DNA of 25,498 nucleotides from positions 1 through 25,498 of IMG/VR virus record IMGVR_UViG_3300025128_000297; one strand, 5' to 3'. A program made the position numbers and the translations under genes. Under the pieces are notes generated by a model. That model saw only the letters and a program-made list of their open reading frames with translations. It ran no database searches and was not told the origin of the DNA. Shown here piece by piece: positions 10,586 to 25,109 of this stretch (positions within the stretch are counted from its first letter, which is position 1; each line of letters opens with the position of its first letter). The stretch comes from a virus.

Positions 10586-11023
10586 ATGGCAATAACATCG
10601 GCAGTATGTAACAGTTTTAAAACAGAAGTTTTACAAGGCTTACATAATTTTACAGCGTCGTCTGGAAACACTTTTAAAATAGCTTTATACACAAGTAGTG
10701 CTACTTTAAATAAATCAACTACAGCTTACAGTACATCAAACGAAATTACTAACACATCAGGTTCAGCTTATAGTGCAGGTGGTGCAACACTTACAAGTGT
10801 AACTCCAGCTTTATCAACTGACACAGCTTGTTGTGATTTTGCAGACGTTAGTTTTACTTCTGCTTCATTCACAGCAAACGGATGTTTAATTTATAATGAT
10901 ACAAACTCTGATAGAGCAGTTTGTGCAATCGCATTTGGTGGAGACAAAACTGTATCAAGTGGAACTTTTACAATTCAATTTCCAACAGCAGACGCATCTA
11001 ACGCAATCCTTCGTATAGCATAA
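10586..11023 (+). CDS. Structural protein, 145 aa, beta-rich
   Basis: A 145-residue protein lies behind a taggaga ribosome site (10570-10576). It opens MAITSAVCNSFKTEVLQGLH, then TFKIALYTSSATLNKSTTAY, and continues with Ser/Thr/Ala-rich beta strands. Cys-Cys in TACCDFADVSF and further Cys residues could form disulfides, although phage proteins fold in the cytoplasm. I recall 'FKIALYTSSATL...TTAYSTTNE' proteins across many phages as tail or virion components. I assign a structural role only. Confidence 0.7.
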   Translation: MAITSAVCNSFKTEVLQGLHNFTASSGNTFKIALYTSSATLNKSTTAYSTSNEITNTSGSAYSAGGATLTSVTPALSTDTACCDFADVSFTSASFTANGCLIYNDTNSDRAVCAIAFGGDKTVSSGTFTIQFPTADASNAILRIA

Positions 11024-11036
11024 GGAGGAATTCCTT

Positions 11037-12041
11037 ATGTCTACATCAGTTTGGGGTGGAGATAGTCCTTCAGTAGCCTGGAATGAAAATTCTTGGGAAT
11101 CTAACGTTCTTACTGTTACTTTAACTGGTGTATCAACTACATCTAGTGTAGGTGAATTAACAGCATTTCCAGAACAAGGTTGGGGTGGAGCCCAATGGGG
11201 AAATGATGGTTGGGGTGTAAATTATTCTGTTTTACCTACGGGTTTAAATATTACTTCAAGTCTTGGAACTGTTTTAGCAGAACAATTTATAGACGCTCCA
11301 TTAACAGGTCTTAGTACCACATCTTCTTTAGGATCACTAACTTTTGATTTAAACACTATTGCAGCACCAACAGGTGTTAACGCAACAACAGAACTTGGAA
11401 GTTTTGACAATGCCGGTACTTTAGTTGGTTGGGGTAGAAATGGTTGGGGTGAAGAACCTTATGGAGATTCATTTAATAAATTAGAACAACCAGCCGGAGT
11501 TAGTGCAACAGGTAGTGTTGGTTCTTTAGGTTTTGATTTAACTTCTGTAATATCTACAACAGGAGTTAGTGCAACAACCAGTATTGGTTCTTTAACTTTT
11601 GTTATAGATTCTACACCTGTCATAACAGGTGTTACCACAACTGCTAGTGTAGGAAGTATCGCTCCAGCCGATGTTATGGGATTAACTGGAGTATCCGCAA
11701 CTGCTAGTGTAGGAAGTATCGCTCCAGCCGATGTTATGGGACTAACAGGAGTGTCTGCAACATCTTCTATAGGAGATGTAGAAATAACAAGAGAGGAAAT
11801 TGTAATTCCTACGGGACAATCTTTAACAAGTAATTTAGGTTCTCTTACATTAGAAATAGGAGTCCCATTAACAGGAGTCTCATCAACAGCAAGCACAGGG
11901 TCTATTACACCTGCAGATGTTGTGGGATTAACAGGAGTACAAGCAACAACAAGTGTCGGTGATTCTGGATTAATTCTTCAATATTACAGAACATTAACAC
12001 CTAAAGTTAGCTCAGGTTATACAATAAAAACACCTGCATAA
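11037..12041 (+). CDS. Repeat-containing tail protein, 334 aa
   Basis: The gene has an aaggagg ribosome site (11022-11028) upstream. The protein has about a dozen copies of a short unit of the form TGVSATTSVGS, spaced mostly 18-22 residues apart from about residue 30 to 309, likely beta-strand repeats. Interspersed are three Trp/Gly-rich segments: SVWGGDSPSVAWNENSW near 4-20, GWGGAQWGNDGWGVNYS near 48-64, and GWGRNGWGEEPYGDS near 131-145. Residues about 201-240 contain a near-exact duplication of a 20-residue block. The ordered beta repeats suggest an extended tail or fibre shaft. It is upstream of two fibre genes. No catalytic motif is seen. Confidence 0.68.
   Translation: MSTSVWGGDSPSVAWNENSWESNVLTVTLTGVSTTSSVGELTAFPEQGWGGAQWGNDGWGVNYSVLPTGLNITSSLGTVLAEQFIDAPLTGLSTTSSLGSLTFDLNTIAAPTGVNATTELGSFDNAGTLVGWGRNGWGEEPYGDSFNKLEQPAGVSATGSVGSLGFDLTSVISTTGVSATTSIGSLTFVIDSTPVITGVTTTASVGSIAPADVMGLTGVSATASVGSIAPADVMGLTGVSATSSIGDVEITREEIVIPTGQSLTSNLGSLTLEIGVPLTGVSSTASTGSITPADVVGLTGVQATTSVGDSGLILQYYRTLTPKVSSGYTIKTPA
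11641..11760 (+). repeat. 60-bp tandem duplication within tail repeat gene
   Basis: Bases 11641-11700 and 11701-11760 are two adjacent 60-bp units. The first 41 bases of each are identical, and only a few third-position-type changes occur in the remaining 19. The unit encodes 20 residues (VGSIAPADVMGLTGVSATAS in circular register), so the reading frame is kept. Near identity at the DNA level points to a recent duplication rather than selection on protein alone. Confidence 0.9.
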
Positions 12042-12047
12042 TTATAA

Positions 12048-12076
12048 TTGACTTTATAATAAATAGATAATATAAA
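12048..12076 (+). promoter_or_regulatory. Sigma70-like promoter ahead of fibre gene
   Basis: TTGACT (12048-12053) and TATAAA (12071-12076) are separated by exactly 17 bases, each differing from the consensus at one position. They lie in the 61-base gap before the S74 fibre gene, followed by a taggag Shine-Dalgarno site (12088-12093). This is among the best promoter matches in the window. AT-rich sequence can give such matches by chance, so use is inferred. Confidence 0.62.
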
Positions 12077-12102
12077 ATAACACTTATTAGGAGTATAAAA
12101 GT

Positions 12103-13125
12103 ATGGCATCAACATTTTCAGACTTAGGAATAGAACTAATGGCAACCGGCGAAAACGCTGGTACATGGGGAACAAAAACAAACGCTAATTTAAATCTTAT
12201 AGAACAACTTACAGGTGGTCACCTAGAAGTATCAATTGCAGGTGGTGCACAAACTACAGCCTTAGATATAGATAATGGTGCTTTAACAGGTACTGCTCAA
12301 CAAAGAGTTTTAGAATTAACAGGAACAATTACAGGAAATCAAATTGTTACATTTCCTGTTAACACAGAAAATTTTTATTTTATAAAAAACGGCACTTCAG
12401 GTGCTTACACAGTACAATTGAAAGCAGCATCAGGAAGTGGTGCTACAGTTACTTATTCAACAACTGATAAAGGTTGGAAAATTATTTATCTTGATGGTGT
12501 TGCAACAAATACTGGACTTTATCAACTTAATGATAATTTATCAGGTTTAAAAGTTGGAACAGATGTACAAGCCTATGATGCACAATTAGCCGACGTTGCG
12601 GGTTTAGCTGTAACTGACGGAGGTTTTATTGTTGGTGACGGTTCTAATTTTGTTTTAGAAACTGGCGCTACTGCAAGAACTTCAATAGGGTTAGGTACTT
12701 CTTCAGATGTTCAATTTAATGATCAACAAGTAGATTCTTTAGGAGTAGGAACTGCTGCATCAGGAACTACTGGAGAAATAAGAGCTACTAATGACGTAAC
12801 AGCTTTCTATTCTTCTGACATTGCACTTAAAGAAAATATTACAAACATACCTAATCCATTAGACGCACTTAAAAAGTTAAATGGAGTTTTATTTGATTGG
12901 AAAAAAGAATACATTGATAACAGAGGTGGTGAAGATGGCTACTTCGTTAGAAAAAAAGATGTAGGTGTTATAGCTCAAGAAGTAGAAAAAGTTTTACCTG
13001 AAGCGGTTGCACAAAGACCGGATGGTGTTAAAGCAGTTAAATATGACAGACTTACTTGTCTATTGATTGAAGCAGTAAAACAATTACAAGACAAGGTAGA
13101 CAGTTTATCAAATAAGGGGAAATAA
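12103..13125 (+). CDS. Tail fibre with S74 intramolecular chaperone, 340 aa
   Basis: The N-terminal 150 residues (SDLGIELMATGENAGTWGTK and on) match a fibre/baseplate attachment region common in marine phages. A beta-rich shaft follows. The last ~100 residues are a peptidase S74 intramolecular chaperone domain: SSDIALKENITNIPNPLDAL with Ser238-Asp239 at the predicted self-cleavage site, then KLNGVLFDWKKE, DVGVIAQEVEKVLPEAV, VKYDRLTCLLIEAVKQLQDK. In endosialidase, K5 lyase and similar fibres this domain drives trimer folding and is then cut off before the Ser. The catalytic Ser-Asp and the LKxN motif are present, so cleavage is likely. It has its own predicted promoter. It would be a host-recognition protein. 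Confidence 0.88.
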   Translation: MASTFSDLGIELMATGENAGTWGTKTNANLNLIEQLTGGHLEVSIAGGAQTTALDIDNGALTGTAQQRVLELTGTITGNQIVTFPVNTENFYFIKNGTSGAYTVQLKAASGSGATVTYSTTDKGWKIIYLDGVATNTGLYQLNDNLSGLKVGTDVQAYDAQLADVAGLAVTDGGFIVGDGSNFVLETGATARTSIGLGTSSDVQFNDQQVDSLGVGTAASGTTGEIRATNDVTAFYSSDIALKENITNIPNPLDALKKLNGVLFDWKKEYIDNRGGEDGYFVRKKDVGVIAQEVEKVLPEAVAQRPDGVKAVKYDRLTCLLIEAVKQLQDKVDSLSNKGK

Positions 13126-13126
13126 T

Positions 13127-14188
13127 ATGGCTGTCCCTAGTAACCCTAAATTATCAGACATTCAAACAGAATTTGGTGGGTCTAATCCAATAGAACTTAC
13201 AGAATATTATTCTGGAGGACCTTTAGTTCCTGCAACTACACCTGCTCCTAATGGACCAATTGCAAGTTCAGGTGCAATCACTATGGGATCTTTTAGAGGA
13301 GCTGAATTAGTAACTTTTTTAAGTGCTTCTGGTGGAACAGTAACAACATCAGGAGATTTTAAAATTCATACGTTTACAGGACCAGGTACTTTTTCAGTTT
13401 CATCCACATCGAATTCAGCACCATTAAATGAAGTTTCTTATATGATCGTTGCCGGAGGCGGCGGAGGAGGAACTTCAGAAAACCCGGGTAACTGGGAAAA
13501 CGGTGGCGGCGGTGGCGCAGGTGGTTACAGAGAACGTAGAGCAGGTAATGATAGTTTTTCAACCTCTCCAAAAAATGGAGCAACACCAATTACAGTTTCA
13601 GCAACAAGTTATCCAATAAGCATCGGCGGTGGCGGTGGCGGCGGTAATCCTGGTAATGGTACTACTAGAGGAAGTAGCGGCGGAACTAGTTCTGCATTAG
13701 GACAGTCAGGCACTGGCGGTGGCGGTGGTGGGGGTAACCACGCTCCACAAGAAAATGGTAGTTCTGGTGGATCTGGCGGCGGCGGTGCTGGTGCTGGTGG
13801 TTCAGGAGGCGGTGGTAATTCACCTCCAAGAAACCCACCTCAAGGAAATAGTGGTGGTACCGGTAACACAGGAAACCCAAGACCCGGCTCTGGAGCTGGC
13901 GCGGGAGGCGGTGCAAATGGTGGTGGTGGTAGCGGATCTAATCAACAAGGTGGCTCCGGTGGTAGTGGCGCAACATGTTCAATAACCGGTAGCGGTGTAT
14001 CACGATCAGGTGGTGGCGGCGGATCTGGAGGTAATCCAGGAGGAGGATCTTCTGGAGGAGGAAATGGAGCAAATAGTAACGGAGGAAATGGAAGTTCAAA
14101 CAGAGGTGGCGGCGGTGGTGGCGCTGAACTTAGCGGCGGTGGAAACGGCGGTTCTGGTATAGTAGTAATAAGGTATAAGTATCAATAA
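13127..14188 (+). CDS. Polyglycine-rich tail adhesin, 353 aa
   Basis: The first ~65 residues (PKLSDIQTEFGGSNPIELTE ... AITMGSFRGAE) are an attachment module I recall from many marine phage fibres. A second domain follows (TVTTSGDFKIHTFTGPGTFS, then VSYMIVAGGGGGG). From about residue 110 to 335 the sequence is dominated by Gly runs with Ser, Asn and Ala. It ends in GGNGGSGIVVIRYKYQ, the usual closing strand of Gly-rich domains. In S16/T-even gp38 adhesins such runs pack as polyglycine-II helices with variable receptor-binding loops at the tip. This protein likely has a similar fold and role. Its Gly-coding DNA makes this a local GC-rich patch. It starts 1 base after the S74 fibre stop. Confidence 0.85.
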   Translation: MAVPSNPKLSDIQTEFGGSNPIELTEYYSGGPLVPATTPAPNGPIASSGAITMGSFRGAELVTFLSASGGTVTTSGDFKIHTFTGPGTFSVSSTSNSAPLNEVSYMIVAGGGGGGTSENPGNWENGGGGGAGGYRERRAGNDSFSTSPKNGATPITVSATSYPISIGGGGGGGNPGNGTTRGSSGGTSSALGQSGTGGGGGGGNHAPQENGSSGGSGGGGAGAGGSGGGGNSPPRNPPQGNSGGTGNTGNPRPGSGAGAGGGANGGGGSGSNQQGGSGGSGATCSITGSGVSRSGGGGGSGGNPGGGSSGGGNGANSNGGNGSSNRGGGGGGAELSGGGNGGSGIVVIRYKYQ

Positions 14189-14189
14189 T

Positions 14190-14618
14190 ATGGCACACTT
14201 TGCAAAAATAAATGATGAAAACGAAGTTATTAATGTTTTACATGTTGATAATGACAATATTCAAAATGATCAAAATATAGAAACTGAATCAGTAGGACAA
14301 ACTTATTTAGAAACACATAATAATTGGCCTGCAGATAAATGGATTCAATGTTCTTATAACACAGTAGCTAACACACATAAATCTGGCGGAAGTCCTTTTA
14401 GAGGTAATTACCCATCTATTGGATTTACTTGGGACTCAACAAATAATATATTTTGGCCACCAAAACCTTTTGCTTCTTGGGTAAAGCATATTGAATCAGC
14501 AAAATGGAAATCTCCTATAGGAGATCCTCCTGCATTAACAAATGAAGAAGAATCATCTGGTAAATACTACGATTGGAATGAAACTGATCAAACTTGGAAT
14601 TTAATAAACCCCACGTAA
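14190..14618 (+). CDS. Conserved fibre-region protein, 142 aa
   Basis: It begins MAHFAKINDENEVINVLHVD and contains NPFR-like, YPSIGFTWDSTNNIFWPPKP and FASWVKHIESAKWKSPIGDP segments. I recall this pattern ('MAHFAKL..NNxV..V..V' ... 'G.TYD...D.F.PPKP..SW.L') from a very common small protein in cyanophages and other marine phages, encoded near fibre genes. It may be a fibre-associated or tail-tip subunit. It follows the adhesin stop by 1 base, apparently by translational coupling, because no good ribosome site is seen. It is the last gene before the oxygenase cassette. Confidence 0.8.
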   Translation: MAHFAKINDENEVINVLHVDNDNIQNDQNIETESVGQTYLETHNNWPADKWIQCSYNTVANTHKSGGSPFRGNYPSIGFTWDSTNNIFWPPKPFASWVKHIESAKWKSPIGDPPALTNEEESSGKYYDWNETDQTWNLINPT

Positions 14619-14646
14619 TTGACATTTTATAACATCTGTGTATATT
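14619..14646 (+). promoter_or_regulatory. Predicted promoter of the oxygenase cassette
   Basis: A perfect -35 box, TTGACA (14619-14624), overlaps the end of the preceding gene's stop region. TATATT (14641-14646) follows after 16 bases and differs from the -10 consensus at one base. Transcription would start about 6-8 bases later, at or next to the ATG at 14653, so the first message may be leaderless. No Shine-Dalgarno site lies before that ATG. The match is direct; function is inferred. Confidence 0.62.
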
Positions 14647-14652
14647 GTTTAT

Positions 14653-15156
14653 ATGCAGAAGAAAGTACTAACAGAACAAGCAATATATTACGGTGATGTT
14701 AAAATGCCTGATGGCTGGGAATTAAGTCAAGAACAGTTTACAAGTGACATATTAGAATCAAAATATACTAGAAATCAATTTAAATTTTCTAAAAACCATG
14801 ATCGATTAAATTCATATATAATTGAACATATAAATTTAAAATATAAAATCCCTCTTTGTCAAATAGAAACTTGGGGAAATATATATAAACCTAAAGAAGT
14901 GACTAAATTAATGTTAGAAGCAGATTTAATGAATCTAAAATCATCTCCTGATTTTGTTGTTTTATATGGTGTTAAAGTAAAAGATTGTATTGTTCACATT
15001 AATTATGATGACAATAGGAAGAAAGACAACATTTGGTCTATACCATTAACTGATAATCAATTTATAATGTTTCCTTCTACAAATACTTACCATATCGAAA
15101 ACAATCAAAACGATTCGTTAAATTTTATACAAGTAATTACATATACTTTAGATTAA
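14653..15156 (+). CDS. Degenerate 2OG-Fe(II)-oxygenase-like protein, 167 aa
   Basis: I take ATG 14653 rather than an in-frame GTG at 14638 that lies in the promoter. The C-terminal half has the order of a phage 2OG-Fe(II) oxygenase double-stranded beta-helix: CQIETWGNIYKPKEV, LEADLMNLKSSPDFVVLYGV, DDNRKKDNIWSIPL, FIMFPSTNTYHIENN, then a FIQVITYTL strand. The proximal HxD motif is replaced by Glu89-Ala-Asp91, and no Arg is seen at the usual 2-oxoglutarate site. His147 matches the distal His. It may be an inactive scaffold, may use a different ligand set, or may be cupin-like. It heads the cassette and ends 3 bases before the carbamoyltransferase ATG. Confidence 0.6.
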   Translation: MQKKVLTEQAIYYGDVKMPDGWELSQEQFTSDILESKYTRNQFKFSKNHDRLNSYIIEHINLKYKIPLCQIETWGNIYKPKEVTKLMLEADLMNLKSSPDFVVLYGVKVKDCIVHINYDDNRKKDNIWSIPLTDNQFIMFPSTNTYHIENNQNDSLNFIQVITYTLD

Positions 15157-15159
15157 TAC

Positions 15160-16809
15160 ATGCGAATTTTAGCATTTAATACTACGCACGACAGTTCTGT
15201 ATGCTGTGTAAATAACGGTGACATAGAGTTTTTCTGTAAAGAAGAAAGATTAACTAGAATTAAAAGAGACAATAATCCTTTCAAATCATTAGATTTATTT
15301 AAATCTCAAAATACAAAACCTATTGATCATATACTTTTTTGTACTCCATCTAATAGAGAAGGTGACGTTCAATATATCTACGATCAATATATTAGAAAAC
15401 TATTTAATGTAGAGATGGAAAACTTTTCTTTCTTAACACATCATCTGTGTCATGCTTCTTCTGCATTTTACAATAGTGGATTTAAACAAGCTTTATCATT
15501 TGTAATAGATAGAAATGGTTCTATTGTTTTTAACAATAACACTGACTCATGTAGAGAGGCAGAAAGTGTTTTTATTTGTAGCTATCCAGATGATATAAAA
15601 CCAATATATAAATCTTTTTGGACAAATAATTTAATTGCTATTGATAAGGATAATTTAAAAATACATTTGAAAAACATATATCCAAGTATAGATATAAATA
15701 TTGACAATGAGTATTCTATAACAAAAGTCTACGAAGCAGCAACTACTTTAATAGGACAAAACATTTTAGAAAATGGAAAAACAATGGGTCTGTCATCATA
15801 TGGTTTAAATAAAAAGTATGAGTCTTTATTTTTAAATGGAAACCCTATTACTAATTATTTTAATCATTCATATAAAGATAACGACAATGTTGTAACTTTT
15901 AATGGATTAGAAGATAAAATTACAAACTACATAACACAAGAAAATTATCAATTCTATGCAGACAAAGCAAAACATGTTCAACTAGAAACTCAAAGAGAAA
16001 CACTTACATTAATAAAAAAATATGTAGAAAAAACAAAAATAACAAACGTATGTATATCGGGTGGCTATGGTTTAAATGTGGTTGCAAATAATTTTTACAT
16101 AAAAAATCTACCTAATGTTAATTTTTATTTTGAACCATTATCTGATGACACAGGTATTTCTATTGGGGCGGCATATCTAAAATATAGAAACGTAACTAAA
16201 GATAATAAAATTAAAACACCTAAAAATAATTTTTATCATTACTATAAAGACACTAAAATAAATAAAGGAACAAAAGCATCAATAAAAGATATTTGTAAAT
16301 TATTAAATAATCAAAAGAGCGTAGCTATTTTTGAAGGTTGTGCTGAAGCAGGACCCAGAGCATTAGGACACCGATCAATATTATTTGATGCAAGAAATAA
16401 AGACTGTAAGAATTTAGTTAATAAAATTAAAAATAGAGAGTGGTATAGACCGTTTGCAGGAGTAATACTTAAAGAACATTTTAAAAAATATTTTAATACT
16501 TTAGGTTTAAATGAATCTAAAGACATGACTATTAATTTTGAATGCCATAAAGACACTTTAAAATTAGTTCCTGGTATAGTTCACGTAGATAAAACATGTA
16601 GAGTTCAAACAGTTGAATCTGGTTTTATGTATCAGTTACTTACAGAATTTAATAAATTAACAAAATGTCCTATGTTATTAAATACAAGTCTTAATCTAGC
16701 AGGACAACCATTAGTAAATACAAAAGAAGAAGCATGTGAATTATTGAATAATAGTAAATTAGATGCTATATATTTTGTAGACGACAAAAAAATTTTATAC
16801 AGAAAATGA
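15160..16809 (+). CDS. NodU/TobZ-family carbamoyltransferase, 549 aa
   Basis: These enzymes move a carbamoyl group from carbamoyl phosphate, through carbamoyl-adenylate, to a hydroxyl of a sugar or other acceptor (NodU, TobZ, CmcH families). The N-terminal Kae1-like domain has MRILAFNTTHDSS, the metal motif HHLCHA (His94 and His98), KTMGLSSYG, CISGGYGLNV (from 298) and EPLSDDTGISIGAA (from 325). The C-terminal YrdC-like domain has GCAEAGPRALGHRSIL (GPRALG at 398), YRPFAGVIL and LLNTSLNLAGQPLVNT. Length is near the family norm, and all key motifs are present, so it should be active. The stop overlaps the next gene start (ATGA). No ribosome site is visible. The acceptor is unknown. Confidence 0.93.
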   Translation: MRILAFNTTHDSSVCCVNNGDIEFFCKEERLTRIKRDNNPFKSLDLFKSQNTKPIDHILFCTPSNREGDVQYIYDQYIRKLFNVEMENFSFLTHHLCHASSAFYNSGFKQALSFVIDRNGSIVFNNNTDSCREAESVFICSYPDDIKPIYKSFWTNNLIAIDKDNLKIHLKNIYPSIDINIDNEYSITKVYEAATTLIGQNILENGKTMGLSSYGLNKKYESLFLNGNPITNYFNHSYKDNDNVVTFNGLEDKITNYITQENYQFYADKAKHVQLETQRETLTLIKKYVEKTKITNVCISGGYGLNVVANNFYIKNLPNVNFYFEPLSDDTGISIGAAYLKYRNVTKDNKIKTPKNNFYHYYKDTKINKGTKASIKDICKLLNNQKSVAIFEGCAEAGPRALGHRSILFDARNKDCKNLVNKIKNREWYRPFAGVILKEHFKKYFNTLGLNESKDMTINFECHKDTLKLVPGIVHVDKTCRVQTVESGFMYQLLTEFNKLTKCPMLLNTSLNLAGQPLVNTKEEACELLNNSKLDAIYFVDDKKILYRK

Positions 16810-17429
16810 ATTTATATAACTCATATTATTATTTTAAAAGCGCCTTATCACATAGATTTTGTGACGAAGTAATAAAACATGCTTTGCAAAAGAAAGAAAC
16901 TTTAGGTTTGACAGGTGAATATCAAGACGACGAATTAAATAAAAAAAATTTAAAGAAACTTAGAAAAATAAGAAATTCTGATTTAGTTTGGTTAAATGAC
17001 AATTGGATTTACAAAGAAATTAAACCATATGTTAATATAGCTAACAACATGGCTGGTTGGAATTTTCAATGGGATTTTTCTGAAGAAATACAATTTACAA
17101 AATATAAACATAATCAATTTTACGATTGGCATTGTGATAGTTGGATCAGACCTTATCATAAACCAGATAGTCCACAACAACATGGTAAGATTAGAAAACT
17201 ATCTATGACATGCCAATTAACAGATAGTTCAGAATACAAAGGAGGCGAATTAGAATTTGATTTTAGAAATAGACACCCTAAAGAAAACACCGTACATCAA
17301 TGCAATGAAATATTACCGAAAGGATCTATTATTGTTTTTCCTTCTTTTGTTTGGCATAGGGTAAGACCAGTCACAGCCGGCACTAGATATTCTCTTGTGC
17401 TTTGGAATTTAGGAAATTCTTTTATATAA
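16806..17429 (+). CDS. 2OG-Fe(II) oxygenase, prolyl-hydroxylase-like, 207 aa
   Basis: These enzymes use Fe(II), O2 and 2-oxoglutarate to hydroxylate substrates. The iron triad is visible: His109-Cys-Asp111 (YDWHCDSW) and distal His184 (FVWHRVRP). Arg194 (TAGTRYSLVLW) is at the expected place to bind 2-oxoglutarate. The KLSMTCQLTDSSEYKGGELE strand is typical of PKHD/prolyl-4-hydroxylase-type members. The first 100 residues form the usual N-terminal helices (FCDEVIKHALQKKE). It overlaps the carbamoyltransferase by 4 bases, so the two are probably translationally coupled. The substrate is unknown. Of the cassette's oxygenases it most resembles the PKHD-type enzymes. Confidence 0.9.
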   Translation: MNLYNSYYYFKSALSHRFCDEVIKHALQKKETLGLTGEYQDDELNKKNLKKLRKIRNSDLVWLNDNWIYKEIKPYVNIANNMAGWNFQWDFSEEIQFTKYKHNQFYDWHCDSWIRPYHKPDSPQQHGKIRKLSMTCQLTDSSEYKGGELEFDFRNRHPKENTVHQCNEILPKGSIIVFPSFVWHRVRPVTAGTRYSLVLWNLGNSFI

Positions 17430-17433
17430 AAAT

Positions 17434-17898
17434 ATGCAAAAAATAACTATACTAGATAATTTTTTAACAGATAAACAATGTGATAGTTTAATTAACTTTT
17501 ACAATTCTAAACCTCAGCCATCAAAATATCTTACAACACATCCTCTAAATCTATCTATTAATGATCATAAAACATTAACTAAAAAAATAAATAAAATAGG
17601 TATTGATATAAATAAGTCTATCATTGATTGGTTTCAAATAGTTAAGTGGCCTTTTCCAAACGTGGGTATGGATATGCATATAGATGATGCTTCTATTAAA
17701 ACTACTTTAAGCGCTGTAATATATTTAAATGATAATTATCTAGGTGGTTATACTCATTTTAATTGCAGGACTCATATAGCTCCAGTTAAAGGTAGAGCAA
17801 TTTTTTTTGATGGAAAAAAATATAAACATGGGGTTTCTATTATTGATAAAGGAGAAAGATACACAGTAGCAGCATGGTTAAAAAATGAAAAAAAATAA
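17434..17898 (+). CDS. 2OG-Fe(II) oxygenase, 154 aa
   Basis: This is a compact oxygenase with an intact triad: His82-Ile-Asp84 (MDMHIDD), distal His132 (KKYKHGVS) and Arg142 (DKGERYTVAAWL). The core strands TTLSAVIYLNDNYLGGYTHF and THIAPVKGRAIFFDGKKYKH match the double-stranded beta-helix, with the 'G(G)...G.a..F' pattern before the distal His. It begins QKITILDNFLTDKQCDSLIN, the usual start of P4H-like proteins ('i.dnfLt...Cd.li'). Only 154 residues long, it lacks lid insertions, so it may accept large or exposed substrates. It is 4 bases after the previous stop and has no ribosome site. Confidence 0.88.
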   Translation: MQKITILDNFLTDKQCDSLINFYNSKPQPSKYLTTHPLNLSINDHKTLTKKINKIGIDINKSIIDWFQIVKWPFPNVGMDMHIDDASIKTTLSAVIYLNDNYLGGYTHFNCRTHIAPVKGRAIFFDGKKYKHGVSIIDKGERYTVAAWLKNEKK

Positions 17899-18373
17899 AT
17901 TAAAAATAAAAAAGAATTTTTTAAGAAAAGATTTATATCTTGCTATGAAAAGTATGATTACTGATAGTAATTTTAGTTGGTATCTACAACATGGTATTAC
18001 TTATAAATATAATAAAGATATTTTTTTTACTCATAATTTTTTTACTGAATATGGTATTAATAGCTCTTACTATGAAGATATAGTAATTCCTTTTGTTGAA
18101 AAATTAAAAATAAAAAAATTATTAAGAGCAAAATTAAATCTTTATACAAAAACAAATAAAGAAATTATACATGGTTTTCATACAGATAGAGAAGATGATC
18201 ACATGGTTGCTTTGTTTTATTTTAACAAAAACAATGGACATACTTTATTTAGAAAAGATAAAGTAAAACCAGAAGATAACAAAATTGTAATGTTTGATGG
18301 TTCGTTAGAACACACTAGTACGAGTTGTACAGATGAAGATTATAGAATAACTTTAAATATAAATTATGTCTAA
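17885..18373 (+). CDS. 2OG-Fe(II) oxygenase, 162 aa
   Basis: The protein carries His99-Thr-Asp101 (HGFHTDRED), His143 (GSLEHTSTS) and Arg154 (DEDYRITLNINY), so the metal and 2-oxoglutarate sites are complete. The strand before the distal site reads NKIVMFDGSLEHT, as in phage oxygenases from cyanophages. The start overlaps the previous gene by 14 bases. The N-terminus is Lys-rich and poorly conserved. AT content is extreme, with many A runs. I recall similar 'fHtDreD....vlYlN..nG.T.f' proteins in marine phages with unknown substrates. Confidence 0.87.
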   Translation: MKKNKLKIKKNFLRKDLYLAMKSMITDSNFSWYLQHGITYKYNKDIFFTHNFFTEYGINSSYYEDIVIPFVEKLKIKKLLRAKLNLYTKTNKEIIHGFHTDREDDHMVALFYFNKNNGHTLFRKDKVKPEDNKIVMFDGSLEHTSTSCTDEDYRITLNINYV

Positions 18374-18989
18374 AAATATATTACCTAACGAAACAGCATA
18401 TATAAAAAGTAAATTAAATAAAGAAGCTATGGATAAATTAAAATCTTATATAAAAAATAAAAAAAGCACCTATAACTATAGATTAGCTGGAAATATATCC
18501 AATTCTTTTTTATTAGAAGATAAAGATAATTGGTTTTTTAATAATGTTTTATTAAAATTAATGAGTGAATATGACGGAAAAGATATATCAGCAATTGTAC
18601 CCTCTGTTTTAACAAAAAATTGTGCGTTTGTTTTAGATAATTTTTGGGTTAATTTTCAAAATAAATATGAATTTAATCCACTTCATCATCATGATGGTGT
18701 TTTTTCTTTTGTAGTATGGATGGAAATTCCATCTAGTTATAAAAAAGAAAAAGAATTAAAATTTGCAAAAGACTCTAATTCACCAAACCCAAATACTTTT
18801 GAATTTGTTTATACAAATATATTTGGTAGAATACGTGTAGAAAAATTTAATTTAGAACCAAAAGATAAAGGAACCATTTTATTGTTTCCTTCATATTTAT
18901 CACATCAAGTCTATCCTTTTTATTTATCAAATAAAAAACGAATAAGTATTTCTGGAAACATAAAATTAGACCCAACAAAACATGTATAA
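18366..18989 (+). CDS. 2OG-Fe(II) oxygenase, 207 aa
   Basis: The core has LHHHDGVFSFVVWMEIPS with His108-His-Asp110 as the probable metal pair (His107 and His109 are adjacent). LLFPSYLSHQVYPF supplies the distal His180, and NKKRISISGNI supplies Arg192. The 'FPSyL.H.V.P.....R.SIS.N' ending is typical of the 2OG-FeII_Oxy_5 type. Between strands there is a long insertion (KKEKELKFAKDSNSPNPNTF and on, ~40 residues) that may form a substrate lid. It overlaps the preceding gene by 8 bases (ATGTCTAA) and is followed by another 8-base overlap. The substrate is unknown. Confidence 0.86.
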   Translation: MSKNILPNETAYIKSKLNKEAMDKLKSYIKNKKSTYNYRLAGNISNSFLLEDKDNWFFNNVLLKLMSEYDGKDISAIVPSVLTKNCAFVLDNFWVNFQNKYEFNPLHHHDGVFSFVVWMEIPSSYKKEKELKFAKDSNSPNPNTFEFVYTNIFGRIRVEKFNLEPKDKGTILLFPSYLSHQVYPFYLSNKKRISISGNIKLDPTKHV

Positions 18990-19584
18990 AGATTTTTTAA
19001 TTGTAGACAATTGGTATAATCAAAAAGAACTAGATTCTATTTATAAAGAACTAGATTTTTTATCTTTAGAAATGTCTAGTTCTGAACAAGTCAAAGGACC
19101 TGCCTTAGATGAAAATAATAAACCTAAATTAAAAGGTTTTAGAATATATCCTTACGATATCTATTCAGAAAAAGGTATTGAATATTCACCTATTTTAAAA
19201 TCAGTTAATAAATTTAAAGACAAAGACTTTCACAAAAAAGTAGAAAAAACATTTAAAGATACAGGCACAGCTTTGTTTGAACAATTTACGGGAACAAATT
19301 ATTCTCAGACATTAATTAATTATTTTGAAAATGATAATTATTATAAAGAACATTATGATGGTTTTCAATTTACAGCATTAATTTTTATTTTTAAAGAACC
19401 TAAATCTTTTACAGGAGGTGATTTTTATTTTACAAGAATAAATAAAAAAATAGAATGTAAAAATAATAGATTGGTTTTATTTCCATCTTTTTATTATCAT
19501 GGAACAAATGAAATTAAATCTAAATTAAATAAAAAAAATCACGGTAGGTATTCAATAGCTACTTTTTTTTCAACGAGGACGTAA
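18982..19584 (+). CDS. 2OG-Fe(II) oxygenase, 200 aa
   Basis: The motif set is His124-Tyr-Asp126 (YYKEHYDGF), a FTGGDFYFTRINKKIECKNN core, distal His173 (FPSFYYHGTNEI) and Arg189 (HGRYSIATFF). The N-terminal half begins YKDFLIVDNWYNQKELDSIY, a P4H-like opening. The 'GGDFYF..INK' hairpin is what I expect of prolyl-hydroxylase-like members. It overlaps the previous gene by 8 bases (ATGTATAA). Its 3' end contains GAGGA (19574-19578), which serves as the Shine-Dalgarno site for the next gene, the only convincing one inside the cassette. Confidence 0.86.
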   Translation: MYKDFLIVDNWYNQKELDSIYKELDFLSLEMSSSEQVKGPALDENNKPKLKGFRIYPYDIYSEKGIEYSPILKSVNKFKDKDFHKKVEKTFKDTGTALFEQFTGTNYSQTLINYFENDNYYKEHYDGFQFTALIFIFKEPKSFTGGDFYFTRINKKIECKNNRLVLFPSFYYHGTNEIKSKLNKKNHGRYSIATFFSTRT

Positions 19585-19586
19585 GC

Positions 19587-20138
19587 ATGTTTAATATTTT
19601 TAGTTCTTATTTATCAGTAGATACTTTTAAATTTGATGTAAAAAAATATAAAAAAGAAATCCTAGACTTTAAATCTATAAATAATACTGTTATTAAAAGT
19701 AATTATGGAGGATGGCAAAGCGATAGTTTTAAAACAGTGCCTAAAAATTTTTTAGGTCTATTTAAAAAAATTAATTCTAATGTTAAAAAAATAGAAAAAA
19801 AGTTATCTCTTTCAAAAAAATTAAAATTAAGTAATTTATGGTATAATGTTAATGGTTTAAGTTCATTTAATAGACCACATGACCACAAAGGATCTGTTAT
19901 ATCGGGAGTATATTATATTTCAATTCCTAAAAATTCAGGATCTATAGTTTTTTTAGGTAGAGATATTGATACATTTTACACTTCAGTGGATTCATATAAT
20001 CATTATAATTCATCAATTTGGAAAATAGAACCAGAGGAAAATATATGTATTTTATTTCCCTCTTATTTAAAACATTATGTTGAACCTAATTTAAATAAAA
20101 AAGAAAGAGTAAGTATAAGTTTTAATTATGTCTTTTAA
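19587..20138 (+). CDS. 2OG-Fe(II) oxygenase with HxH motif, 183 aa
   Basis: The core matches a TIGR02466-like family (2OG-FeII_Oxy_5): LWYNVNGLSSFNRPHDHKGS, VISGVYYISIPKNSGSIVFL, ILFPSYLKHYVEPNL and ERVSISFNYVF. The metal motif is His98-Asp-His100 rather than HxD, a variation I recall as normal in this family. Distal His163 and Arg174 are present. It starts 2 bases after the previous stop with a GAGGA ribosome site. AT content is extreme, with about 7 G/C in the 60 bases from 19741. The enzyme is predicted active, and the substrate is unknown. Confidence 0.87.
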   Translation: MFNIFSSYLSVDTFKFDVKKYKKEILDFKSINNTVIKSNYGGWQSDSFKTVPKNFLGLFKKINSNVKKIEKKLSLSKKLKLSNLWYNVNGLSSFNRPHDHKGSVISGVYYISIPKNSGSIVFLGRDIDTFYTSVDSYNHYNSSIWKIEPEENICILFPSYLKHYVEPNLNKKERVSISFNYVF

Positions 20139-20757
20139 AAAAAATAAATACATAGTAATTAGAAAAGCAATATCAAAAGATTTAGCAATTTTTGTCGCTA
20201 ATTATTTTAATATGAAAAAACAAGTCTTTGATACTTTTAAAAAGTATAGATATATTTCTCCTTTTGAAAATTCTTTTGGATACTATGAAAATGAAAATGA
20301 ACAAATACCAAATACATATTCACATTACTCTGACATAGCTATGGAAACTCTTATGTTAAAATGTCAACCAAAAATGGAAGAAGTCACTGGATTAAAATTA
20401 TATCCAGCTTACACTTATGCTAGAATTTATAAAAAAGGTGATCAACTCACAAGACACAAAGATAGATTTAGTTGTGAGATATCTACTACTATGAATCTTG
20501 GTGGCGACCCTTGGTCTATCTATTTAGAGCCATCTGGTAAAGAAGGTAAGAAAGGTATTAAAGTAGATTTAAAACCAGGAGATATGTTAGTTTATTCTGG
20601 TTGTGATCTAGAACATTGGAGAGAAAAATTTAAAGGTGAAGAATGTGTACAAGTATTCTTACACTATAATAATATTAAAACACCGGGAGCTAAAAAAAAT
20701 ATGTTTGATAAACGCTTACATTTAGGTTTACCCAGTTGGTTTAAAATAAATGAATGA
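20128..20757 (+). CDS. 2OG-Fe(II) oxygenase, 209 aa
   Basis: The segment LYPAYTYARIYKKGDQLTRH ends in the proximal His110-Lys-Asp112, followed by EISTTMNLGGDPWSIYLEPS. LKPGDMLVYSGCDLEHWREK provides distal His163. The usual Arg ten residues after that His is not evident: the strand reads CVQVFLHYNN. Arg165 or another residue might bind 2-oxoglutarate, or the cosubstrate site differs. I recall this subfamily ('R.Y.kGd.l.rH.DR..cE.S.T..L') from cyanophages and eukaryotic algae. It overlaps the upstream gene by 11 bases and the downstream gene by 8. The substrate is unknown. Confidence 0.86.
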   Translation: MSFKKNKYIVIRKAISKDLAIFVANYFNMKKQVFDTFKKYRYISPFENSFGYYENENEQIPNTYSHYSDIAMETLMLKCQPKMEEVTGLKLYPAYTYARIYKKGDQLTRHKDRFSCEISTTMNLGGDPWSIYLEPSGKEGKKGIKVDLKPGDMLVYSGCDLEHWREKFKGEECVQVFLHYNNIKTPGAKKNMFDKRLHLGLPSWFKINE

Positions 20758-21280
20758 TTGGGTTATACATACAAAAATAGATATTACAGGTTGTAAAAAA
20801 ACTTTAGATAATATAATAAAAAAAATATCTCCTTTATCAGTAGAACATAGAAGCACCAAAGGCATTAATTCAAAACAATATTTACTTGATAAATATCAAA
20901 ATAAATTTTTAAAAATACAAGAGGATGTAAAAAAACAAATTAAAACACACATCAATATTAAAAATAATTTAAATTTAATAGCGGCATGGACTGTGTTAGG
21001 TTATGAAAATAGTTATCATTCTGTGCATAATCATAATGACCCTACCAATCACGTAGCCTCTGTTTTGTACTTAAAAGTACCTAAACCTAAAATAAATAAG
21101 GGAGGACAATTTTATTTTTTTATTAGGGATAAAAATTTAAATATTACGTATCATGAAATTAAACCAAAAGAAGGAAGTTTAATAATTATGCCCATACATA
21201 TATTTCATGGTGCTTATCCTCAAGCAAAAGGTTTAAGACAAACTCTTAACATGGATTTTGAAATTGAAAAACTTTGTTAA
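20750..21280 (+). CDS. 2OG-Fe(II) oxygenase with HNH motif, 176 aa
   Basis: The core reads YENSYHSVHNHNDPTNHVAS with His93-Asn-His95 in the place of the HxH motif of TIGR02466-type enzymes. His95-Asn-Asp97 would be an alternative HxD register. VLYLKVPKPKINKGGQFYFF, IKPKEGSLIIMPIHIFHGAY (His153) and GLRQTLNMDFE (Arg163) complete the site. This is the last oxygenase of the cassette. It overlaps the previous gene by 8 bases (ATGAATGA) and is overlapped at its end by the next small gene. The N-terminal 75 residues are Lys/Asn-rich helices. Confidence 0.84.
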   Translation: MNDWVIHTKIDITGCKKTLDNIIKKISPLSVEHRSTKGINSKQYLLDKYQNKFLKIQEDVKKQIKTHINIKNNLNLIAAWTVLGYENSYHSVHNHNDPTNHVASVLYLKVPKPKINKGGQFYFFIRDKNLNITYHEIKPKEGSLIIMPIHIFHGAYPQAKGLRQTLNMDFEIEKLC

Positions 21281-21599
21281 TTATTTAACTGATCCTGTAT
21301 TAGCTACACCTGAACAACAAAAAAATGAAATATGGGATGTAGAAGGTAGACTTAAAAATGCTAATCAGTCTTTTAAATTTGACATAAGACCTTTAAGATC
21401 TGTAAATAACAGAGCAGAAAAAACAGGTTATTTTAAAACTAAATCAGATAAAATGGTTTTTGAAACTATTGACCAATGGGTTATATTTGATACGGAAGAG
21501 TTAAACGAATATGTTAAATCTACGAATAAAAAAGACTTTAATATAGAAGAATTACTAAATAATTTATCTTGGAATTTGATAATTGATAAAGTAGAGTAG
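21258..21599 (+). CDS. Small conserved protein, 113 aa, TTG start
   Basis: No ATG is available at the start. TTG 21258 gives MKLKNFVNYLTDPVLATPEQ, and TTG 21264 is an alternative. Translation probably re-initiates from the oxygenase gene it overlaps by 17-23 bases. The middle reads FKFDIRPLRSVNNRAEKTGY, then FKTKSDKMVFETIDQWVIFD and TEELNEYVKSTNKKDFNIEE. It is a charged, probably folded alpha/beta protein. I recall 'VNNRAEK.GYF.TKADKMVFE..DQW' proteins in marine phages near virion genes but not a function. It marks the return from the oxygenase cassette to the structural module. Confidence 0.7.
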   Translation: MKLKNFVNYLTDPVLATPEQQKNEIWDVEGRLKNANQSFKFDIRPLRSVNNRAEKTGYFKTKSDKMVFETIDQWVIFDTEELNEYVKSTNKKDFNIEELLNNLSWNLIIDKVE

Positions 21600-21603
21600 T
21601 ATT

Positions 21604-23823
21604 ATGCTACAAAAATTAGGATTTTTACCAGGTTTTAACAAACAAGTTACATCTACAGGAGCTGAGTCACAGTGGACAGACGGGGAAAATGTACGTTTTA
21701 GATATGGTACACCTGAAAAAATAGGTGGGTGGTCTCAATTAGGCTCTGAAAAACTAACAGGTGTTGCAAGAGGTTTACATCATTTTGTTAATAAAAATTC
21801 AATTAAATATGCTGCTATTGGAACAAACAGGATTTTATATGTTTATTCTGGTGGTGTGTATTATGACATACATCCTCTAGTTAATCCATCAGGCACAGCT
21901 ATTACAAATGCATTTAGCACGGTTAATGGATCACCTACTGTCACTATAAGTTTTGCTGGAGCACATGGTTTTATAGCAGGAGACATAATTTTATTTGGTG
22001 ATACAACAACTTTTAGTGCTATTACTGATTCTAATTTTACAGCCACAGATTTTGCTGATAAAAAATTTATGGTGACTTCTGTAATAGACGCTCTCACAAT
22101 TACAATTACAATGCCTAGTAACGAAACAGGAAGTGGAGCCAGTACTTCTGGAGGTATAACTTATTTTAGATATTATCACGTAGGACCCGCAGAACAAGCA
22201 GGTGCTTATGGTTGGGGTATATCTTTATGGGGTGGAAATGTTACTGGACCAATAACAACTACTTTAAATGGATCACTAAGTGCTAATGCATTTGGTACAG
22301 GTGGTTCAGGAACAAGTATCACACTGACAAGTACAGTAGGTTTTCCAACTACTGGAACAAACTTTATACAAGTTGGAACAGAAGAAATTTCTTATACAGG
22401 TGTATCAGGAAATGATTTAACTGGTATTACTAGAAATGTTAGAGGAACTACAAACGCATCTCATTCAAGCGGAGACACGGTAACAAACACATCTAGTTTT
22501 ACAGGATGGGGTTCTGCTGCGGTTAATACCGATTCAGTATTAGATCCTGGTCTATGGTCTTTAGATAATTTAGGAAGTACCTTGATTGCTTTAATACATA
22601 ATGGTGAATGCTTTCAATGGAATGGTGATTTAACTAATGCAACTGCAACTCGTGCAACTATTATCAGTGGTGCACCAACAGCGTCACGTGATATGTTAGT
22701 GTCCACACCAGATCGTCACTTAGTTTTCTTTGGAACAGAAACAACTATTGGTGATAAAAATACACAAGATGATATGTTTATCAGATTTTCTTCTCAAGAA
22801 GATATTACAGACTACACACCAACAGCTGAGAATAGTGCTGGTACACAAAGACTGGCCGCCGGATCACGGATCGTGGGTGCTAAACTTGGTAGAAATGCAA
22901 TATATATTTGGAGTGACAATTCTTTATTTACTATGAGATTTGTTGGAACACCTTTTACGTTTGCGTTTGAACAAGTTGGTACTAACTGTGGATTAATAGG
23001 ACAGAACGCAGCTGTCGAAGTTGATGGTGCTGCGTATTGGATGTCTGACAATGGTTTCTTTAGATACACCGGTAAACTAGAATCTATGGATTGTTTGGTT
23101 GAAGACTATGTTTATGAGGATTTAAATACTTTATCTAGTCAATTAGTTTATGCAGGTATTAATAATTTGTTTGGTGAGGTTACTTGGTTTTATCCAACAG
23201 CTACATCCAATAGTGTTAATAGAGCGGTTACTTATAGTTATCTAGATTCTACACCTAAACGACCTATATGGTTTACAAACGCTAGTGGTTTATTTGCTAG
23301 AACAACTTGGGTAGATTCTGCTGTGTTTGGTTTACCACACGCAACCCAATACGATGCAGATGATGATACTTCGTTTGATGTAATTGGAAACACAGAAGGT
23401 ATTACCTACTACTATGAACATGAAACAGGAGTTAATCAAATAAGAGGAGGAGCTACAACAGCTATTCCAGCTAATATAACATCTGGTGATTATGACATCA
23501 CACAAAAAGTTGTTAGAGGGGCAGCAACTAGTTTAGGTGATCTTAGGGGTGATGGTGAAAATATTATGCGAGTTAGTAGAATTATACCTGACTTTATTTC
23601 TCAACAAGGAAACGCTATCATACAACTAGATTTAAGAAATTATTCTAATGATGCAGCAACAAGCTCATCATTAGGTCCTTTTACTGTATCATCTTCTACT
23701 GATAAAGTAGACACACGTGCAAGAGGAAGAGCAATAGCTCTTACTATATCTAATACTGCGGTAGATAGTAGTTGGAAACTAGGAACTTTTAGGTTAGATA
23801 TACACGCTGGAGGAAGACGATAA
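21604..23823 (+). CDS. Tail-hub/DNA-stabilisation-like protein (P22 gp10-like), 739 aa
   Basis: The protein starts QKLGFLPGFNKQVTSTGAES and continues WTDGENVRFRYGTPEKIGGW. It then alternates Trp/Gly-rich blade-like repeats (YGWGISLWGG, FTGWGSAAVN, LDPGLWSLDNLGSTLIALIH) with beta strands. An inserted region near 75-170 (SPTVTISFAGAHGFIAGDII) and one near 235-300 (ITLTSTVGFPTTGTNFIQVG) look like small Ig or beta domains. The central part (RDMLVSTPDRHLVFFGTETT, FIRFSSQEDITDYTPT, AIYIWSDNSLFTMRFVGTPF) resembles the beta-propeller of P22 gp10-type hub proteins, which plug the tail and hold DNA in the head. The gene order (gp4-like earlier, this after the fibres) is rearranged. Assignment is by pattern and needs a profile search. 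Confidence 0.7.
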   Translation: MLQKLGFLPGFNKQVTSTGAESQWTDGENVRFRYGTPEKIGGWSQLGSEKLTGVARGLHHFVNKNSIKYAAIGTNRILYVYSGGVYYDIHPLVNPSGTAITNAFSTVNGSPTVTISFAGAHGFIAGDIILFGDTTTFSAITDSNFTATDFADKKFMVTSVIDALTITITMPSNETGSGASTSGGITYFRYYHVGPAEQAGAYGWGISLWGGNVTGPITTTLNGSLSANAFGTGGSGTSITLTSTVGFPTTGTNFIQVGTEEISYTGVSGNDLTGITRNVRGTTNASHSSGDTVTNTSSFTGWGSAAVNTDSVLDPGLWSLDNLGSTLIALIHNGECFQWNGDLTNATATRATIISGAPTASRDMLVSTPDRHLVFFGTETTIGDKNTQDDMFIRFSSQEDITDYTPTAENSAGTQRLAAGSRIVGAKLGRNAIYIWSDNSLFTMRFVGTPFTFAFEQVGTNCGLIGQNAAVEVDGAAYWMSDNGFFRYTGKLESMDCLVEDYVYEDLNTLSSQLVYAGINNLFGEVTWFYPTATSNSVNRAVTYSYLDSTPKRPIWFTNASGLFARTTWVDSAVFGLPHATQYDADDDTSFDVIGNTEGITYYYEHETGVNQIRGGATTAIPANITSGDYDITQKVVRGAATSLGDLRGDGENIMRVSRIIPDFISQQGNAIIQLDLRNYSNDAATSSSLGPFTVSSSTDKVDTRARGRAIALTISNTAVDSSWKLGTFRLDIHAGGRR

Positions 23824-24443
23824 TGGAACAACTAGTAATGGCTATAGCGTTGCCACTAGCTAAACAATACGGCATGAATAAAGCTTTAGATATAGCTTAT
23901 GAAAGGTTGGGTATAGCCTCTCCTGAAGAACAGAATCCATTAATTTTTGGAATGAATCAACCTTTTGCTGCTGGTAATATAGGTGATTCTATAAAAAGAA
24001 GTTTACTTAGAAAAGGAGTTGGTACTGTGTTTAACAGTATGCCTTCAGGTGTATTACCTATTCTTGGATTTACGGGCGTAGCAAGTTTAGCAAATAAATA
24101 TAGAAAACAACTTACTGGTTATGATACACAAGCTGCTTATGAAGCAGCTCGACAGGAACGAATAGCAAATAAAAGATTAGATAACATTACAGATAGAATG
24201 CTTGATGGTAAAGATTATGCAAACTATGAAGATGCATTACTAGACAGTGGTGCAGGTGCTATAAAAATTGATGATACTATTTACTCAGGTCCTGATTATC
24301 AAGGTACTAATGAACGTGATGGTGGTCAAGATATTGGTCCAACAACAAGTTCTAGTGTAGGATATACGAGTAAAGATGCAGACAGAGAAAGCTATAGAGG
24401 TAGATTTTCTGAAGGAGGCATTGCAAGTTTATGGCAAAGATAG
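23823..24443 (+). CDS. Virion-associated hypothetical protein, 206 aa
   Basis: Its ATG shares a base with the stop of the hub-like gene. It starts with an amphipathic or hydrophobic helix (MEQLVMAIALPLAKQYGMNK), has a moderately hydrophobic middle (MPSGVLPILGFTGVASLANK), then a charged helical stretch (AAYEAARQERIANKRLDNIT) and a Ser/Asp/Gly-rich tail ending FSEGGIASLWQR. The terminal GGI motif recurs in other short proteins of this genome. It may be an ejected internal protein or a tail-end protein that touches membranes. That is an inference from composition and neighbours. Confidence 0.65.
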   Translation: MEQLVMAIALPLAKQYGMNKALDIAYERLGIASPEEQNPLIFGMNQPFAAGNIGDSIKRSLLRKGVGTVFNSMPSGVLPILGFTGVASLANKYRKQLTGYDTQAAYEAARQERIANKRLDNITDRMLDGKDYANYEDALLDSGAGAIKIDDTIYSGPDYQGTNERDGGQDIGPTTSSSVGYTSKDADRESYRGRFSEGGIASLWQR

Positions 24444-24595
24444 TTCAAACACTAACAAGAGCAAGCGCTGAGTACGAAGAAGATGTAGCTCACTCATTAG
24501 TTAGAGATTTAGATGCAGTATTAGAAAAATTAAACACAACATTTCAAGAAGAATTAAAACAAGAGATAGAAGCTAGAAGCTTCTTTTTAGATTAA
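24431..24595 (+). CDS. Short acidic helical protein, 54 aa
   Basis: The ATG at 24431 lies inside the end of the previous gene (13-base overlap), 12 bases after a GGAGG (24414-24418). The 54 residues (MAKIVQTLTRASAEYEEDVA, HSLVRDLDAVLEKLNTTFQE and on) form one long charged helix with coiled-coil heptads, then SFFLD. The stop shares a base with the next ATG (TAATG). Tight coupling on both sides and good codon structure support a real gene. No function is recognised. Confidence 0.65.
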   Translation: MAKIVQTLTRASAEYEEDVAHSLVRDLDAVLEKLNTTFQEELKQEIEARSFFLD

Positions 24596-24930
24596 TGGCA
24601 GTAGTAAACCAATATAAATTTGTAGGTATAGATAACAGCACAAGCGGTGGAGCACTTACACCTTTAGGTTCTGGTATTCCTGCAGTCAATGAAACAATAG
24701 TTATTAAATCAATACTTGTTACATCAGCCGGAACACCGTCTGTAACTGTTACAAACAACAGTATTACAGCTATAAAATCAGCGGCTCTTACAGCCAATGT
24801 TACAACAGAATTACTAACCCAACCTTTAATAGTTGAAGGTGGTAAAGCTTTTACAGTGCAATCAAGCACTGCAGATTCGTTTGATGTAGCTATTAGCTAT
24901 CTAAATATTAAGAAAGAGGTAACAACATAA
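24595..24930 (+). CDS. Small beta-rich structural protein, 111 aa
   Basis: The product begins MAVVNQYKFVGIDNSTSGGA and continues as alternating Val/Ile/Thr strands (VNETIVIKSILVTSAGTPSV, TVTNNSITAIKSAALTANVT) ending DSFDVAISYLNIKKEVTT. It is of the size and style of a small jelly-roll or decoration subunit and resembles the 109-residue protein at 8122-8451 in layout. TAATG coupling exists at both ends. A virion role is inferred. Confidence 0.68.
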   Translation: MAVVNQYKFVGIDNSTSGGALTPLGSGIPAVNETIVIKSILVTSAGTPSVTVTNNSITAIKSAALTANVTTELLTQPLIVEGGKAFTVQSSTADSFDVAISYLNIKKEVTT

Positions 24931-25097
24931 TGAAAGTATACAACGCAAAAATAGAAGAAACATATAGACACAAGAAAACAGGAGAGGTTTTTAAGGAAAG
25001 AAAAGACTGGGAAGTCAAAGGTTACAAGCCAGAGGAGATGGCTCAGGACGTAAAAGTTATTATGCCACCTCTTGATTTGTTCTCAAAAACAAAGTAA
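24930..25097 (+). CDS. Small conserved phage protein, 55 aa
   Basis: This short gene is coupled to its upstream neighbour by TAATG. The 55 residues (MKVYNAKIEETYRHKKTGEV, FKERKDWEVKGYKPEEMAQD, then VKVIMPPLDLFSKTK) are charged, with no membrane segment. The pattern 'HKKTGEVF..RKDWE.KGY.PEDM..DV.V.MP.LDLFSKTK' is one I recall in marine phages near the end of the structural module. The function is unknown. Confidence 0.7.
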   Translation: MKVYNAKIEETYRHKKTGEVFKERKDWEVKGYKPEEMAQDVKVIMPPLDLFSKTK

Positions 25098-25109
25098 AGT
25101 AGCAAAACC

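Follow-up and report, generated by a model that had tools for sequence, protein, structure and literature searches.

Few 'auxiliary' genes are as common in marine phages as those for 2-oxoglutarate (2OG) oxygenases. The closest described system is that of the HTVC023P-type pelagiphages, from which eight non-orthologous 2OG families were reported (Wittmers et al. 2022, PMC9599517). The oxygenases of that system often stand beside 'ferrochelatases', the type of gene called g9 below always adjoining an oxygenase; its genes are near one another yet non-adjacent, and a carbamoyltransferase is not mentioned. Here we analyse a 25,498-nucleotide stretch of viral DNA (IMG/VR record IMGVR_UViG_3300025128_000297, hereafter the window) from the same phage group, in which all the genes are adjacent. 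Ten consecutive genes, g1 to g10, encode one TobZ/NodU-type carbamoyltransferase, eight proteins of the 2OG-oxygenase fold with conserved metal ligands, and one relative without these ligands, a pseudo-oxygenase; the 'ferrochelatase' of the window is, by its modelled fold and ligands, itself a 2OG oxygenase. That such phages carry several non-orthologous 2OG oxygenases is already known (PMC9599517). What is new is a fixed slot with exchangeable contents, the reassignment of g9, the recognition of g1 as a conserved pseudo-oxygenase, and a candidate promoter and operator ahead of the cassette.

Results

A fixed slot flanked by tail genes and stab

The ten open reading frames (ORFs) lie on the + strand at 14653-21280 and overlap or are separated by at most 4 bases, in agreement with a first-pass annotation made from the letters alone, which had described ten same-strand genes overlapping or within 5 bases of each other. 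Two assemblies from other metagenomes match this DNA at >99.9% with the same gene order, L004 being 99.98% identical over 14617-25498 and L083 99.99% identical over 10905-20734; misassembly, which the first-pass annotation had named as a possible undoing, is therefore ruled out. The nine oxygenase-fold proteins are at most 28% identical in pairwise comparison (median 19%) and so are not recent duplicates, which rules out tandem duplication as the origin of the cluster.

The closest named relatives of the window are the Pelagibacter phages HTVC023P and HTVC027P and phage 023Pt_psg01. The window has the common virion genes and gene order of the HTVC023P type, and its virion structural/stabilisation protein 'stab' (21604..23823, +; phrog_3287) is 45-46% identical to those of HTVC023P and HTVC027P and occupies the same position, as the 3' boundary of the slot. 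By these sequence comparisons the window is a relative of the HTVC023P-type pelagiphages, which are SAR11 podoviruses. Its host is probably SAR11 as well, an assignment taken from the relatives because the 25.5-kb fragment shows mainly virion genes; no replication gene was recognised on it.

Gene maps of about 110 loci place the cluster in a fixed position between the tail genes and stab. Loci were labelled by single-sequence and iterated HMMER searches of short contigs, many of which stop inside the slot. Of the 26 stab-anchored relatives whose upstream sequence is long enough, 25 have three to eight oxygenases in the slot, counts that are lower bounds from non-independent lineages. The eight oxygenases in a row described in the first-pass annotation are thus one instance of a recurrent arrangement, and eight families had been described before (PMC9599517). 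About half of the relatives, the cultured HTVC027P among them, carry the cassette on the other strand. Other members of the slot are tryptophan halogenase (PF04820), sulfotransferase, O-methyltransferase, JmjC_2 and further carbamoyltransferase genes. The PF04820 halogenase-like genes were found within sister cassettes on either strand (L086, L087, L089, L057, L109, L005, L054 and L014), and one slot gene (L041, 1752-3017) encodes a sulfotransferase fused to an Asp/Arg beta-hydroxylase domain.

Immediately upstream of the cluster are a glycine-rich tail/adhesin-like protein (13127..14188, +; PF21722 Gly_rich_2, E=3e-9) and a small tail-associated protein, t14190 (14190..14618, +; phrog_7759, no assigned function). 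The glycine-rich gene is part of a syntenic unit: the block running from it through t14190 and g1 to g3...g9 recurs despite a different tail gene order elsewhere, also in the cultured HTVC023P. Among 103 loci chosen by similarity to g1, which thus represent just its best matches, t14190 lies directly upstream of g1 in 98; the glycine-rich tail family is found two genes upstream in 85 of the 92 readable loci, with 79 scored as glycine-rich. Next after g1 comes g3 in 62 cases, a carbamoyltransferase gene in 20 and a different oxygenase gene in 16.

Close relatives of the window document turnover within the slot. In L084 and L085, whose DNA is 93-95% identical, g7 is gone exactly from start codon to start codon, the g6 stop codon being re-formed by the following gene, and g10 carries an internal deletion in L084. 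The precise loss of g7 and the deletion in g10 indicate that genes enter and leave the cassette singly. Most cluster genes, g1 included, show a low ratio of nonsynonymous to synonymous substitution rates (dN/dS). The comparison of g5 with L084 gave dN 0.049 > dS 0.024, unlike the neighbouring genes, and fast evolution or recombination is possible there. Upstream of the block, the tail protein at 11037-12041 contains internal near-repeats built of GVSATASVGSIAPADVMGL-like units, with self-similar DNA at 11623-11761.

Reassignment of g9

The product of g9 (20128..20757, +) belongs to phrog_2954, a family labelled 'ferrochelatase' in PHROGs and in GenBank records and treated as such in PMC11561400; the HTVC023P gene annotated 'putative ferrochelatase' is a member, and the 'ferrochelatase' of PMC9599517 is probably the same family. 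No Pfam match was found for g9, the ferrochelatase family giving none at E<=1. Its AlphaFold2 model (pLDDT confidence 95.4; structures were predicted for g1 and g9) found prolyl-4-hydroxylases and other 2OG oxygenases as its best PDB matches (Foldseek E=1.4e-8), and H110, D112, H163 and R165 are conserved. The closest solved fold is the prolyl-4-hydroxylase of Pseudomonas putida (4iw3, 4j25; TM score about 0.6, E=1e-8), which was solved in complex with EF-Tu; at 13% identity, a shared substrate is not implied. We therefore reject the ferrochelatase assignment, as the domain is missing and both model and ligands match a 2OG oxygenase. Renaming phrog_2954 accordingly would take away the basis of claims made in two published papers, namely the notion of a 'ferrochelatase partner' and the seasonality reported for ferrochelatase.

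A conserved pseudo-oxygenase, g1

The model of g1 (14653..15156, +) is a 2OG-type barrel (pLDDT 86.8) whose best matches are TlxI, 3bvc, 2rg4 and PHD2 (Foldseek E about 2e-5), and profile comparison links g1 to g8 (73%, hhalign). The likeness is one of fold: no conserved His, and hence no metal triad, was found among 16 homologues. Relatives of g1 occur at no fewer than 570 places in IMG/VR, and its dN/dS of 0.06-0.45 denotes purifying selection, which argues that the protein is in use and that loss of the metal site is old. A decaying pseudogene is ruled out by the same figures. The first-pass annotation had rightly seen one member with the fold and without the triad; its description as a degenerate relative holds for the triad, whereas the gene itself belongs to a widespread conserved family and is not decaying.

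The remaining oxygenases

Six of the nine oxygenase-fold proteins pass Pfam's own cut-offs. PF13640 was assigned to g3 (16806..17429, +; H109, D111, H184, R194), g4 (17434..17898, +; H82, D84, H132, R142) and g7 (18982..19584, +; H124, D126, H173, R189), and PF13759 to g6 (18366..18989, +; H107, H109, H180, R192), g8 (19587..20138, +; H98, H100, H163, R174) and g10 (20750..21280, +; H93, H95, H153, R163). The product of g5 (17885..18373, +; H99, D101, H143, R154) is below threshold in Pfam, and its profile matches the g4 family at 96.6% and the g8 family at 89.1% (hhalign). The double-stranded beta-helix fold is accordingly supported by Pfam for g3, g4 and g7, by profile for g5, and by model and Foldseek for g9. 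The ligands of all eight proteins hardly vary within their families. HxD...H ligands are present in g3, g4, g5, g7 and g9, and this facial triad is near-invariant across 10-80 homologues for g3, g4, g5 and g9; ligand conservation for g7 and g10 was read from two distinct sequences each. The PF13759 members g6, g8 and g10 lack the 2-His-1-carboxylate triad and keep a conserved HxH...H instead, a trait found also in the solved TIGR02466/PF13759 structures 2rg4 and 3bvc. These structures align with g8, itself of the TIGR02466 type (E=6e-9), but they are of uncharacterised proteins without an assigned reaction. The eight metal triads read in the first pass, seven with a clear Arg (all but g9), stand, and its reservation that several members might lack the fold is answered by the Pfam, profile and model evidence.

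In PHROGs, g4 is labelled 'DNA endonuclease' and g5, through phrog_274, 'DNA endonuclease V', yet the families so named, phrog_2297 and phrog_274, correspond to 2OG oxygenase proteins. The label looks wrong; Pfam, profile comparison and ligands led us to drop endonuclease as an identity for g4 and g5.

The carbamoyltransferase g2

The product of g2 (15160..16809, +) carries an N-terminal Kae1-like and a C-terminal YrdC-like domain, both above the Pfam cut-off (PF02543, E=7e-23; PF16861, E=3e-49), and matches phrog_1601 over its full length (E=4e-123), confirming the complete NodU/TobZ-type carbamoyltransferase first described. It keeps the HxxxH/Asp metal site (H10, H94, H98, D117, D330) and the GPRAL motif, residues with known roles in TobZ. 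Both domains, the invariant His/Asp and GPRAL are shared with the TobZ/NodU/NolO O-carbamoyltransferases, including those of cyanophages in phrog_1601. The nearest sequences are on other viral contigs, followed by the cyanophage enzymes, which are 33-39% identical to this phage clade. Related carbamoyltransferases of cyanophages are encoded among genes for a nucleotide-sugar epimerase, glycosyltransferase or phosphoheptose isomerase. No clear SAR11 locus was found as a cellular source of g2: the best genome-bin matches are mostly <50% identical, and several sit on short contigs with phage-like neighbours.

A phage-borne enzyme of the same superfamily produces 5-carbamoyloxymethylcytosine from 5-hydroxymethylcytosine (5hmC) (Yang et al. 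2021, PMC8670742). It is 23% identical to g2 and has GPRALCNTT where g2 has GPRALGxRS, and no thymidylate synthase or deaminase neighbour of g2 is present in the window. Assignment of g2 as a 5hmC carbamoyltransferase is thus unsupported.

In some loci the carbamoyltransferase is split into adjacent ORFs for the N- and C-domains (L014 7384-8792, L068 7492-8923, and similarly L212, L218 and L220). In GenBank PQ898602 a carbamoyltransferase is annotated as a 2OG oxygenase.

Candidate promoter and operator upstream of g1

The 34-nt spacer before g1 contains a candidate sigma-70 promoter, TTGACA-16-TATATT (14619..14646, +), directly after the t14190 stop. It is the joint best match (11/12) in the 12-24 kb region, where promoter-like matches as a whole are not above chance. 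Of the 13 distinct long spacers among relatives, 11 contain TTGAC, compared with a mean of 0.63 and a maximum of 4 in shuffled sequence. In 71 of 98 g1 loci the spacer is short, and transcription presumably continues there from the tail genes into g1.

A blind scan of IMG/VR for TTGATCTnnATCAA followed after 12-20 nt by TTGACA returned at least 120 stretches. Over all loci examined there are at least 122 such sites, no fewer than 93 of them spaced by exactly 15; among the matches listed, 104 sites have a readable downstream ORF, and 86 of these lead into g1. In L135 (948-982), L141, L150, L185, L192 and about 80 scan loci, the perfect palindrome TTGATCTnnATCAA directly follows the t14190 stop, with 15 nt before TTGACA. 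The palindrome fits the FNR/CRP-type consensus, and TTGATCTAGATCAA may be a binding sequence for the CRP/FNR family. Part of the family would thus have a promoter ahead of the cassette, and many relatives also a putative FNR/CRP-type operator 15 nt upstream of it. A second palindrome, GATGTATATATTACATC (in others CCTTTATAAAAGG), overlaps the -10 region before g1 in L185, L192 and L278. The window's own spacer before g1 has no FNR-type palindrome; the sole exact match in the window is at 20886, inside g10, and such matches are not above chance over the window as a whole. The literature yielded nothing useful on an FNR-type regulator in SAR11, and the search for intrinsic terminators gave one weak match, fewer than expected by chance.

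Discussion

The tail synteny, the repertoire of tailoring enzymes and the modular turnover lead us to favour, with a probability of roughly 0.38, the reading that the cassette modifies tail proteins of the phage itself, or the glycan on them. Linkage to tail genes, which the first-pass annotation had not stressed, is the strongest clue, and the gene-precise loss of g7 together with low dN/dS for most genes accords with selected, modular enzymes. Several of the modification-enzyme families in the slot act on proteins, as does the best fold match of g9, the P. putida prolyl-4-hydroxylase solved with EF-Tu. On this reading, host RNA polymerase would transcribe the cassette, starting at the cassette promoter, in the tail operon or at both; the oxygenases would add hydroxyls to side chains (or sugars) of a protein produced close by, likeliest the glycine-rich tail adhesin or t14190; and g2 would carbamoylate a hydroxyl. 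Other groups would be attached by the halogenases, sulfotransferases and methyltransferases of sister cassettes, g1, retained after loss of its metal site, could act as a substrate-binding or partner subunit, and swaps of single enzymes would alter the chemistry of the receptor-binding surface. More doubtful is the specific version in which modular post-translational tailoring of a receptor-binding tail adhesin is organised around the dead g1 and governed in many relatives by an oxygen/redox-type FNR/CRP operator. The first-pass annotation had proposed a pathway in which hydroxylases create hydroxyls and the transferase caps one. Its anatomy was right, but a single linear pathway with one capping step is weakly supported, since members are gained and lost singly and most relatives are without this carbamoyltransferase; the picture is closer to a modular collection of tailoring enzymes than to a fixed pathway.

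Several points weigh against a tail target. The HxH members g6, g8 and g10 may not perform standard 2OG chemistry, and the tail synteny could reflect hitchhiking through recombination at a hot spot. The glycine-rich protein cannot be the sole target, because 28 of 35 stab-anchored loci have no such protein in the region examined and 27 of these 28 have oxygenases. The carbamoyltransferase and sulfotransferase families often have sugars as substrates, and glycosyltransferase genes lie downstream of stab in HTVC023P and HTVC027P. These last observations suit a cassette that alters the host envelope (lipopolysaccharide or surface glycan) during infection, changing the receptor and limiting superinfection or re-adsorption to debris. 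Sugars being the typical substrates of NodU/TobZ-type carbamoyltransferases, of sulfotransferases and of TylF-type methyltransferases, and the cyanophage carbamoyltransferases sitting among sugar genes, we regard this reading as possible, though well short of probable: the slot of the window holds no recognisable gene for sugar-nucleotide synthesis or glycosyl transfer, the tryptophan halogenases and the Asp/Arg hydroxylase of sister cassettes suit sugars poorly, and the linkage to tail genes would be left unexplained.

The EF-Tu complex of the best g9 fold match, and JmjC_2 domains of the YcfD ribosomal oxygenase type in the slot, recall oxygenases that hydroxylate host proteins such as translation factors or ribosomal proteins, which would aid phage protein synthesis and leave the carbamoyltransferase a separate job. 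A fold match conveys no substrate, however, and eight divergent enzymes with fast turnover are a mismatch for conserved host targets, which would also leave halogenases and sulfotransferases unexplained; we consider this unlikely. Similarly improbable is a metabolic role, proposed for cyanophage 2OG oxygenases by Sullivan et al. 2010 (PMC3037559), in which 2OG turnover or small-molecule synthesis shifts the nitrogen or redox state of the host. The FNR/CRP-type operator of many relatives would accord with it, but 2OG use alone does not call for many divergent, ligand-conserved families in fixed tail synteny, and no core biosynthetic enzyme (nonribosomal peptide synthetase, polyketide synthase or aminotransferase) was seen in the slot. 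DNA hypermodification, with an oxygenase making hydroxymethylated bases for g2 to carbamoylate, has a precedent in the 5-carbamoyloxymethylcytosine enzyme (PMC8670742), and HTVC023P-type phages carry DNA-hypermodification genes (PMC9599517). Against it stand the divergence of g2 from that enzyme, the missing thymidylate synthase or deaminase neighbour, and the scores of the oxygenases against PF12851 Tet_JBP, all below the cut-off of 34.9 bits with 12.6 as the best, and we hold it to be very improbable.

For the 2OG oxygenases of marine phages, the fixed tail-linked slot, the exchangeable enzymes and the pseudo-oxygenase offer a concrete, testable target, the tail proteins of the virion, and cultured relatives are at hand in HTVC023P and HTVC027P on HTCC1062. 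If decoration of the tail is indeed the function of the cassette, hydroxyl, carbamoyl, halogen, sulfate and methyl groups would provide these phages with a chemical route to diversity of their host-recognition surfaces.

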